From the NCBI RefSeq assembly GCF_008015755.1, contig NZ_SSGF01000022.1:1-64000 (forward strand): a DNA stretch of 64,000 nt, written 5' to 3'. This document shows, piece by piece, positions 58,042 through 64,000 of the stretch. The notes below the pieces were generated by a model. It saw only the letters and a list, made by a program, of their open reading frames with translations, was not told the origin of the DNA and did no database searches. The stretch's first letter is position 1. Every line of letters starts with the position of its first letter. The position numbers were made by a program, and so were the translations under genes. Source of the stretch: Methylophilus sp. (lineage in GTDB: Bacteria; Pseudomonadota; Gammaproteobacteria; Burkholderiales; Methylophilaceae).

Positions 58042-58926
<885 letters not shown>

Positions 58927-58992: not shown

Positions 58993-60561
58993 TCATAACG
59001 GTTTGATGAAAACTTTGGATTTTCTCTGAAAATTGTAGAGTTTTTGTTTCTCGTGCGGCAATTGGTCGACATTTTGCTCGGTAAAGCCGCGTTCGAGAAA
59101 CCAGTGTTCGGTACGTGTGGTCAGGCAAAATAGCCTTTTATAGCCTTTTTGACTAGCCTGCTCCTGGCAATAGTTAAACAATTTATCGCCACGGCCACCA
59201 CCACGATAAGTCGGGTCTATGGCCAGGCAGGCAAATTCCACCATTTTTTCCTGGGCAAACGGATACAGTGCGGCACAACCAATCACCCGGTTGTCGTGCT
59301 CCATGACATAAAAGTAATTGATTTCCATCTCGATGCGCTCGCGTCCGCGCCGCACCAGAATACCTTCATTTTCCAGTGGTTCTATCAGCATCAAAATGCC
59401 GCCAACATCGTCAATATTGGCCTGGCGCATGGTTTCCAGCGGTAGTTCGGTAATCATGGTGCCTATGCCCTGGCGCGTAAAGAGCTCCTGAATAATGGCG
59501 CCATCGATGTGCCGCGAAATCAGGTGCGTTCTCGTTACGCCATGTTCGCAGGCGCGAACAGCGGCAGGTAAGTAATAGTTGACGTCCTCCGAGTAGTGGA
59601 TGGGCTCATCACTCTCTTGCACATTGCGCAGCAGGTTTTTGGCTTTGGCCGAGGTCATTTCACGCAATAACTCGCCGCGCAGGTTTTGTACGCCACCCGA
59701 GTCCATCAAAAAAATCAGTTTTTCAGCATCCAGCGCGCTGGCCGCGCTCACTGCCACGTCTTCCAGCGTTAAGTTAAAGGTTTCACCGGTCGGCGAGTAG
59801 CCCATAGGGGATAACAACACCAATTCGCCGTCATCTAACCGCTTTTGGATGCCAATGGCATCTATCTTGCGTACTTCTCCGGTATGTTGCAGGTCTACGC
59901 CGTCGCGCACCCCTAGCGGTTTGGCGGTGACAAAGTTGCCGCTGGCGACACGGATATCGCTGCCTGCCATCGGCGAATTGGCGATGCCCATAGATAGTAG
60001 CGACTCAATTTCAACGCGGATGGCGCCGTTGGCTTCTTTGACCGCCTCCATGGCGGCATCGTCGGTAATCCGCAGGCCATTGTGTAGTTTGGGTGTCAGG
60101 TTGTCGCGTTTGAGGCGCTGTTCAATTTGCGGACGGGCGCCGTGGACCAGCACTAGCCTGACTTCCAGGCTGGCCAGTAGGTTAAGGTCGTGCGATAGGG
60201 CGACAAATTGCTGCTCGCTGACAACCTCACCGCCAAAGGCAATCACAAACGTGCTGCCGCCAAAGGCATGGATGTACGGCGCTGCTGAGCGAAACCAGTG
60301 CACAAAGTCTTTGCTGTTGGCGCTGGAGAGAATGGCAGGCGGTGTATTGGTCAGCGAGACTGGCGTCAGATTGGCATCGTACAAGCGGCCCGGTGTGGTA
60401 TTTAATGCCTGCGCTGCGGCACGCAGCAGGGTCTCAGAGATGCCGATTTCACCGCGTTCAATACGTGACAAATTACTCGCATCTGTGCCCATGCGGGCAG
60501 CGAGTTGTTGTAAGGTTAAATTTTGCGATTTACGCAAATCTCTAATGTTTAATCCAAGCAT
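58993..60561 (-). CDS. argA: XRE-type HTH fused to N-acetylglutamate synthase
   Basis: A 522-residue fusion, about 80 residues longer than ordinary ArgA. Residues 6-60 form a complete Cro/C1-type helix-turn-helix: LTLQQLAARMG, then TDASNLSRIERGE, then a final helix ending at GRLYD. A linker (about 62-84) leads to a full ArgA: the amino acid kinase-like domain (about 85-360, starting DFVHWFRSAAPYIHAF) and a GNAT acetyltransferase domain (about 375-515) with the acetyl-CoA loop YRGGGRGDKLF. The enzyme acetylates glutamate from acetyl-CoA and is normally inhibited by arginine. No stop or frameshift lies between the parts. The HTH suggests a DNA-binding, possibly arginine-sensing regulator; this is inference. 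Confidence 0.93.
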   Translation of the reverse strand: MLGLNIRDLRKSQNLTLQQLAARMGTDASNLSRIERGEIGISETLLRAAAQALNTTPGRLYDANLTPVSLTNTPPAILSSANSKDFVHWFRSAAPYIHAFGGSTFVIAFGGEVVSEQQFVALSHDLNLLASLEVRLVLVHGARPQIEQRLKRDNLTPKLHNGLRITDDAAMEAVKEANGAIRVEIESLLSMGIANSPMAGSDIRVASGNFVTAKPLGVRDGVDLQHTGEVRKIDAIGIQKRLDDGELVLLSPMGYSPTGETFNLTLEDVAVSAASALDAEKLIFLMDSGGVQNLRGELLREMTSAKAKNLLRNVQESDEPIHYSEDVNYYLPAAVRACEHGVTRTHLISRHIDGAIIQELFTRQGIGTMITELPLETMRQANIDDVGGILMLIEPLENEGILVRRGRERIEMEINYFYVMEHDNRVIGCAALYPFAQEKMVEFACLAIDPTYRGGGRGDKLFNYCQEQASQKGYKRLFCLTTRTEHWFLERGFTEQNVDQLPHEKQKLYNFQRKSKVFIKPL

Positions 60562-60590
60562 TGGTCGTTTTATTAAGTTTAATATGCAAA

Positions 60591-60619
60591 ATAATAATTA
60601 AAAATGGTTTTAATTGCAA
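60591..60619 (-). promoter_or_regulatory. Promoter of argA with a palindrome in the spacer
   Basis: On the minus strand TTGCAA (-35, 60614-60619) and TATTAT (-10, 60591-60596) are exactly 17 bases apart. The perfect palindrome AATTAAAA / TTTTAATT with a 4-base centre spans 60596-60615, so it fills the spacer and touches both boxes. Near-identical TGCAAA(A)TAATAA blocks (60585-60597 and 60615-60626) flank it as direct repeats 30 bases apart. This is the layout of a repressor operator; the HTH of the downstream gene product is an obvious candidate. Confidence 0.6.
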
Positions 60620-60660
60620 ATAATAAGGTTTTTATGATTTTTGTAGGGGTCTGCATAGAC

Positions 60661-63495: not shown

Positions 63496-64000
63496 TTAAA
63501 AATCGCCCCACAGCGACTGCATGCTCGCAATGGCTGTGAGCGCGGCGGTTTCGGTGCGTAAAATTCTGGGGCCGAGGACGATCGATTGAAAGTGGTGTTG
63601 TGTGGCGAGTTCGATTTCAGCCGAGCTTAGGCCGCCTTCCGGGCCAATCAACAACTGAATGGCGCTCGCTGGTTTGCTTAAAGCGGCCAGCCGTTTGGCG
63701 CCAATCGGGTTCAGTAATAAATTCAGGTCATTCGGACTTGCGTGCTGGCTAAGCCATTGCGCCAGCGTGAGTGGTGCATGCACGGTGGGCACCACCGCGC
63801 GGCCGCTTTGTTCACAGGCGGCAATGGCGACGCCTTGCCAGTGTTCAGTGCGTTTTTCGGCACGGTCGCCCGTTAACTTGGTGACGCAGCGCTCGGTGCT
63901 GAGCGGATAAATCTCCGTCACGCCGAGTTCGACGGCTTTCTGGATGGTGTAATCCATGCGGTCGCCGCTGGAAATCCCTTGCAGCAATCGAATCGCAAGT
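63496..64000 (-). CDS. rsmE: 16S rRNA m3U1498 methyltransferase RsmE (C-terminal part, 5' truncated)
   Basis: The frame is open to the window edge, so the N-terminal PUA-like domain is missing; 167 residues of the SPOUT domain are visible of a protein usually near 245. [34 protein letters not shown] and [16 protein letters not shown] contain the knot and SAM-binding loop. The enzyme methylates N3 of U1498 in 16S rRNA. It ends 25 bases before the DUF1348 gene. Confidence 0.95.

Follow-up and report, generated by a model that had tools for sequence, protein, structure and literature searches.

An N-acetylglutamate synthase fused to a Cro/C1-type DNA-binding domain, with conserved palindromes at its promoter, as a candidate trigger enzyme in the Methylophilaceae

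Background

Trigger enzymes such as PutA, NadR and BirA combine an enzyme with a DNA-binding domain. One account names five of them in Escherichia coli K-12, and describes PutA as binding the spacer between putA and putP and as repressing when its substrate is lacking (PMC8249747). The protein described here, HTH-ArgA of the methanol-using Methylophilaceae, likewise joins an enzyme, the one that opens arginine synthesis, to a DNA-binding domain, and repression of its own gene is proposed for it. It differs from PutA-type trigger enzymes in that the enzyme is an N-acetylglutamate synthase (NAGS), made up of kinase-like and GNAT domains, the DNA-binding domain is of the Cro/C1 type, the candidate sites form phased pairs and the end product is the presumed effector.

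Classical NAGS, represented by the Neisseria gonorrhoeae structures 2r8v and 3d2p, the best matches in the PDB, has the same enzyme part, arginine loop and lysine as HTH-ArgA, but lacks the helix-turn-helix (HTH). In the known hexamer, neighbouring N-terminal helices interlace, and arginine moves the N-terminal helix, the ring becoming about 10 Å wider and the particle about 20 Å shorter (PMC4490483). As in HTH-ArgA, NAGS is joined to a second function in the NAGS/K of Xanthomonas and Maricaulis and in the ArgH-NAGS of Moritella (PMC4490483); the partners there are enzymes of the pathway, whereas that in HTH-ArgA is a DNA-binding domain. The words helix-turn-helix and DNA are both absent from the main text of this 2015 review of NAGS (PMC4490483). 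No report of an HTH-fused NAGS was found in the literature, mostly among best-ranked matches, which is weak evidence of absence.

ArgR is a hexamer with winged-helix DNA-binding domains, and its target, the ARG box, has the form TG-N10-CA. The task that HTH-ArgA is proposed to share with ArgR/AhrC is the arginine-dependent repression of argA, although the dyad at HTH-argA has the form TG-N9-CA, against the TG-N10-CA of the ARG box, and the other arg genes scanned show no enrichment of it. One survey describes ArgR as well conserved across many groups of gammaproteobacteria, with none in other classes (PMC5343134). The corresponding model (Arg_repressor, PF01316) matched none of 61 genomes from the Methylophilaceae and their order, while 9 of 14 control genomes gave a match; it is also absent among the Pfam matches of the HTH-ArgA protein.

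Results

Domain architecture of HTH-ArgA

HTH-argA was analysed in a 64 kb stretch of Methylophilus DNA, here called the window (Table 1). The preliminary description of the gene had claimed that one continuous frame joins an HTH to a full-length ArgA, and this was borne out, the 522 codons encoding intact Pfam and NCBIfam domains. The XRE domain is recognised both by HTH_3, at 45.5 bits against a gathering score of 23 (Pfam, residues 6-58), and by a five-helix fold in the structure model; AA_kinase follows at residues 104-349, with GNAT models within 412-495 (Pfam). Full-length equivalog matches above curated cut-offs, to PRK05279 over residues 81-522 (E 8.5e-207, 687.3 bits against 344, profile 4-441 of 441; NCBIfam) and to TIGR01890 over residues 86-522 (575.5 bits against 202.85, profile 1-429 of 429), place the enzyme with classical bacteria-like NAGS. 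Since these profiles are covered essentially end to end from residue 81 or 86, the ArgA part is complete and the HTH is additional. The nearest solved structure for the enzyme part is that of N. gonorrhoeae NAGS (2r8v, residues 85-519, E 2.6e-89).

The argB gene follows argA after 69 bp, on the same strand, and was returned in the window's own genome (G000) as a weaker, kinase-only match when the HTH-ArgA protein was used as the query; co-transcription of the two genes is a guess. An ORF resembling rsmE by eye, with the end WGDF, lies upstream of argA at 63496-63987 of the window, with other genes between, and many relatives have an ORF with a similar end directly before argA, whether or not this encodes an HTH.

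Table 1. Features of the HTH-argA locus in the window
Feature	Position	Strand	Evidence
HTH-argA ORF, 522 aa and stop, ATG start	58993..60561	minus	ORF list
Cro/C1-type (XRE) HTH, residues 6-58	60388..60546	minus	PF01381 (HTH_3), E 7.8e-12
Third HTH helix, residues 28-35	60457..60480	minus	Residue conservation and model helix
Variable linker, probably disordered, residues 63-81	60319..60375	minus	pLDDT and pN/pS
N-terminal helix of amino-acid-kinase domain, residues 80-100	60262..60324	minus	Model and PMC4490483
Complete classical ArgA part, residues 81-522	58996..60321	minus	PRK05279, TIGR01890, 2r8v match
Arginine-site loop ELFTRQGIGT, residues 359-368	59458..59487	minus	Motif from PMC4490483
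argB, acetylglutamate kinase	58042..58923	minus	ORF; name from position and sequence
Candidate operator O1, left half-site TTTGC kept, right half degenerate	60604..60620	minus	PWM 9.1
Candidate operator O2, left half-site kept	60574..60590	minus	PWM 9.6
Candidate operator O3, TTTGCGTAAATCGCAAA, within codons 8-14	60522..60538	minus	PWM 16.4
Putative -35 box TTGCAA, inside O1	60614..60619	minus	Consensus match, 17-bp spacing
Putative -10 box TATTAT, between O1 and O2	60591..60596	minus	Consensus match

An AlphaFold2 monomer model, made with 51 sequences, had a mean pLDDT of 82.5 and a pTM of 0.67. Its HTH consists of five helices (residues 2-12, 17-24, 28-35, 43-52 and 57-61; block pLDDT 80-87), the third of which we take, from general knowledge of the fold, to be the recognition helix. 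The linker at 65-83 falls below a pLDDT of 50, and helix 80-100 runs into the kinase-like domain; in this model it is the counterpart of the helix moved by arginine in N. gonorrhoeae NAGS. The model is closer to arginine-bound NAGS (3d2p, rmsd 3.8) than to the native form (2r8v, 12.4), a monomer model giving no certain word on the state in the cell.

The arginine loop, E-(L/I)-(F/M)-(T/S)-X-X-G-X-G-T, is present in 98 of 101 family loci, with an ELYT variant in the other three, and Lys281, matched to the published lysine by alignment context, is kept in all 101. Because the arginine site is intact and arginine moves the N-terminal helix of the related enzyme, arginine is a plausible switch of HTH-ArgA.

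Distribution and conservation of the fusion

The 101 loci, one per genome, were drawn from 108 loci of the 175 family genomes with a match, after setting aside a duplicate (L034, of L069), two contig fragments (L066, L067) and two pairs each from a single genome, one with a run of N in the frame (L040/L089) and one with a frame break (L041/L068). The interruptions in L089 (G206, run of N) and L041/L068 (G107, frame break) may be assembly faults or real breaks.

Two checks suggested in the preliminary description concerned the domain order of other Methylophilaceae ArgA proteins and the loss of HTH residues in relatives. The frame is no accidental read-through: the same HTH-ArgA order was found in frame in all 101 loci, those of streamlined 1.2-1.4 Mb genomes included, and the HTH residues have been retained: R10, L31 and E35 occur in all 101, S32 in 100, N30 in 98 and R33 in 94. 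A match (E 1e-60 or better) was obtained in 175 of 187 family genomes, and in 118 of the 119 that are at least 90% complete and at most 5% contaminated. The full-length family matches listed start at residues 1-6, the exceptions being G028, with the HTH as a second piece in the same frame, the interrupted G206 and G107, and fragments such as G180.

Another 24 families of the order were sampled with a single genome each; there the alignment set in at residues 63-86, save in G046, where it began at 39 and included an internal stop. Across 274 genomes of the class, 185 of them with ArgA, no other in-frame HTH fusion appeared among the matches listed, where only the window's own genome aligned from residue 1 in an open frame. 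Among named relatives (the best 80 of 581), all 11 with an HTH were Methylophilaceae or genera thereof; carriers include Methylophilus methylotrophus, Methylotenera versatilis, Methylobacillus arboreus and Candidatus Methylopumilus. As far as sampled, the fusion marks the Methylophilaceae, since it is in frame within the family and unseen in the genomes sampled outside it. Several apparent fusions were rejected: alignments in G411, G425, G419 and G304 began at residues 18-52 but had stops inside, that in G344 started only at residue 57, and L254 matched from residue 28 but had a stop between another ORF and ArgA.

Across five groups, pooled pN/pS lay at 0.08-0.22 in the HTH and 0.04-0.16 in the enzyme domains, with 0.23-0.75 in the linker; these values are rough because synonymous sites are near saturation. 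By these estimates the HTH is under purifying selection. Its third helix is nearly invariant.

Palindromes before HTH-argA across the family

The DNA before HTH-argA carries a dyad of the form TTTGY-N7-RCAAA, counted as TGY-N7-RCA with AT-rich flanks in 99 promoters, two of the 101 loci having too little upstream DNA. Within 120 bp upstream, 150 dyads were found in 79 of the 99 loci, compared with 6.9 (sd 2.7) in shuffles. The N7 gap is specific, as gaps of 2-6 and 8-15 yielded 4-17 dyads in the same 120 bp. When 110 bp were taken together with the first 15 coding bases, there were 161 dyads in 85 of 99 promoters (8.2 in shuffles, sd 2.4), and after dereplication to below 80% identity 58 dyads remained in 29 of 30 promoters (4.0 in shuffles, sd 1.4). 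From -95 on, 28 of the 30 dereplicated promoters have at least one dyad and 21 at least two; in the full set, 58 of 99 promoters have at least two. Of the 15 loci in which no strict dyad occurs from -95 on, 14 belong to the window's genus; the other, L026, has a misplaced start and a dyad pair further up, 29 bp apart. In Methylotenera the upstream pair is intact.

Distances between paired dyads cluster at 28-32 bp (40 pairs), 41-42 bp (10) and 50-52 bp (14), with 10 pairs elsewhere; this spacing amounts to about three, four and five helical turns, which places paired sites on the same face of the DNA. L074 and L075 have a third dyad at about -91, some 30 bp above the usual pair. The best match to a -35 box, boxes here being consensus matches only, lies inside a dyad or half-site in 55 of 99 promoters, with a strict dyad in 30, and outside any site in the other 44. 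In 39 of 99 there is, in addition, a further site whose first base falls 6-14 bp past that of the -10 box. In the 55 and 39 promoters with such placement, the predicted layout of sites is that of a repressor.

Promoters of HTH-less argA, one each from 20 of the 24 other families, contained no dyads in 20 cases, and the 10 dyads in 69 named HTH-less loci are background, with other gaps giving 5-15. Because HTH-less genomes are often richer in G+C, other gaps in the same DNA are a fair yardstick. XRE factors bind palindromic operators specifically, and the palindromes conserved at the gene's own promoter are candidates for such sites. Whether Gly or Ser at residue 29 goes with a lost right half-site was also considered; the idea was dropped, as L052-L054 have Ser and each keeps a palindrome.

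Candidate operators in the window

In the window, O1 overlaps the putative -35 box and O2 adjoins the putative -10 box, with 30 bp between O1 and O2 and 52 bp between O2 and O3. The matrix used for scoring was a family matrix of 138 training sites, two of them from the window's genus, with a chance expectation per 64 kb of about 3 hits at a score of 9 and 0.1 at 16. Four hits at 9 or above were found in the 64 kb, three of them at argA. Given some three chance hits per 64 kb, the support for O1 and O2 comes not from score but from their conserved position in relatives and their 30-bp distance: the left halves are kept in 16 own-genus loci at about -57 (O1) and -27 (O2), the conservation of O1 being partly that of the -35 box.

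O3 has the best score in the window and perfectly matching six-base arms, and its palindrome is present in 16 of 16 own-genus loci (scores 12.3-16.4). When synonymous difference was computed for 517 six-codon windows in these loci, codons 9-14 came lowest (0.117, the overall value being 0.639). Reduced synonymous change close to the start of a gene can also arise for other reasons, though codon 7 does not share it (pS 0.69). Of 102 invariant Leu, Ser and Arg columns, only Leu9 (TTG) and Ser12 (TCG), both within the palindrome, use a single codon in all 16 loci. The next lowest windows, codons 363-374, surround the arginine loop, where there is no known site.

Search for a wider regulon

A pathway-wide arginine regulon was not supported. 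Stretches containing carA, argH, argC and argJ, and that upstream of argF, in 14 genomes each, gave two matrix hits of at least 11 and seven of at least 9 in about 222 kb, which is no enrichment; the two hits were at a carA locus (11.2) and an argH locus (15.7). The scan took argD to be part of the stretch preceding argF and had no separate stretch for argG; the own-genome argJ locus (L182) was shorter than the rest, and weak half-sites would hide in the background. ArgJ was found in all 14 genomes; since it is present, ArgA may, we presume, mainly top up the acetyl cycle.

Searched genome-wide in six genomes, a single-site pattern gave 8-41 hits, against 7-22 for the reversed pattern, and a stricter pattern in four own-genus genomes gave 14-22 against 9-13. 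A large regulon was rejected, the counts in these six and four genomes being only modestly above the reversed-pattern control. The sites listed, 75 in all, take in only part of G185 and none of G200; 67 of them were scored. A set of 14 with strong scores away from argA, though not exactly the 14 highest, was inspected: nine lie inside predicted ORFs (one of them the metW start, L228), one at an ORF end and four between ORFs (L223, L225, L231, L232), next to unrelated genes with no common theme. In G185, an intergenic site of 19.7 precedes a gene that by eye is XRE-type-like, followed by a small acetyltransferase-like ORF (L225:1492-2797), and sites of 20.4 and 16.5, 19 bp apart, precede an ORF that by eye is unrelated to arginine (L223:1479-1514).

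The argA site is common to all four own-genus genomes, as is TTTGCATTAATTACAAA, which has the same sequence in each of them and falls within the opening codons of metW; another site stands 30 bp ahead of it. The metW pair is found at L332:2046-2092 (G000:C36:28845-28891, outside the window) and in L366-L381, metW lying directly after metX. Of 16 own-genus genes, drawn from 22 genomes with six more distant genes set aside, 14 have a metW site 2 with a score above 18, one has a site 2 of 12.1 and one lacks it; in 9 of the 16 each of the two sites reaches at least 14, and in four more the first site has a score of 10-11. Codons 13-18 of the 16 metW genes, where site 2 falls, are the lowest of 197 synonymous windows (0.202 against 0.610). 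The six distant genes include one with the pair and one with a single site; the other four have none. Among 22 genomes across the family, which include two of the six and none of the 16, nine have a site of at least 10 at the metW start, with pairs only in G136 and G025 (42 and 30 bp apart). No site was found at the metW start in eight outgroup genomes. Because part of site 2 follows from a conserved protein motif, metW is a likely target in Methylophilus only; that it is a second target in part of the family is possible. The metXZ element, the usual control of metXW in beta-proteobacteria, is reported to lie before metZ in three Methylophilales (PMC4239095), and metXW may therefore have needed new control.

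Discussion

We consider it likely that HTH-ArgA is a trigger enzyme that acts as autogenous repressor of argA. The proposal builds on the fusion and its conservation, on the palindromes and their spacing, and on the intact arginine site. A classical NAGS, presumably hexameric and arginine-sensitive, would have gained an XRE domain in the ancestor of the Methylophilaceae and would now repress its own gene, and probably argAB. Pairs of HTH domains would bind palindromic operators, TTTGY-N7-RCAAA, two of which, on the same face, would cover the promoter and start region; as the operators share one face of the DNA, a single oligomer could hold both and exclude RNA polymerase, and the three HTH pairs of a hexamer could offer two dimers to two in-phase operators. 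The HTH would hang on the N-terminal helix that arginine moves, and through this helix arginine would probably switch the repressor, strengthening binding as a co-repressor, the sign of this effect being part of what we infer. In the window's genus, the upstream sites appear to have weakened to half-sites, with a third strong site inside the HTH codons.

The likeness to PutA and NadR as enzyme and regulator in one, drawn in the preliminary description, gains from the co-occurrence of conserved, often paired and phased palindromes with the HTH at the argA promoter; with enzyme and DNA-binding domains both intact and palindromes present, the comparison with trigger enzymes is one of sequence. 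The broader suggestion of a transcriptional sensor for the whole pathway was not supported, there being no enrichment in the carA, argH, argC, argJ and argF stretches, and regulation looks autogenous.

The palindromes might be operators of another regulator, such as a free-standing XRE protein, with the HTH of ArgA serving another end, for example as an anchor of the enzyme on DNA or on a partner protein. The motif comes from promoters and has no direct tie to the protein, conserved sites also occur in metW, a gene of another pathway, and a strong site precedes the XRE-type gene of G185. Nevertheless, we judge this reading improbable: the sites accompany the HTH, promoters of HTH-less argA have none or a background number, ArgR was not found in 61 genomes, residues of the third helix are conserved as expected for a conserved site, and counts across ten genomes only modestly exceed the reversed-pattern control. 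A single gain of both HTH and operators is probable, which makes their co-occurrence one evolutionary event rather than many, and the metW sites and the four of 14 strong sites that are intergenic could reflect either a separate regulator or more targets. That the HTH is a non-binding relic, kept for folding or oligomerisation, is very improbable. Its evolution is indeed faster than that of the enzyme domains, with a mean pairwise identity of 51% where theirs is 65% and 59%, but conservation within it peaks in the third helix, and conserved palindromes stand before the gene. Scarcely credible is a translation start in the linker, raised in the preliminary description, that would make HTH and enzyme separate proteins. 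The window has an in-frame GTG at codon 87, a possible additional internal start, but such a start is not conserved: in aligned codons 63-92, 50 of 101 loci have no ATG or GTG and 43 no ATG, GTG or TTG, and the HTH stays in frame in all 101 despite a linker varying in length and sequence.

Autorepression could also operate without an arginine switch, the loop being set by enzyme concentration or by an acetyl-CoA or glutamate signal, an alternative that we regard as unlikely while giving it real weight. As the linker is variable and predicted to be disordered, coupling to the arginine-moved helix may be weak; against this, the HTH is attached next to the NAGS helix that arginine moves (PMC4490483), and the arginine site is intact. 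Returning to self-repression with arginine as co-repressor, its most extensive form seems rather doubtful: a hexameric, arginine-sensing self-repressor would bridge phased operators at argA, playing there, throughout a family that lacks ArgR, the part of ArgR elsewhere, and would also control metXW in part of the family, coupling the acetyl-CoA-consuming committing steps of arginine and methionine synthesis.

Conclusions

Few trigger enzymes are known, and HTH-ArgA is a candidate conserved in a family with streamlined lineages as well as methylotrophs in culture. A candidate operator sequence is at hand for it, as is a known structural switch, the N-terminal helix moved by arginine. O3 would be a clear example of dual coding, an operator spelled out by conserved synonymous codons of the very DNA-binding domain. 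If the proposal is true, it would explain the control of argA in a lineage without ArgR, and would bring allosteric feedback and gene repression together in one polypeptide.
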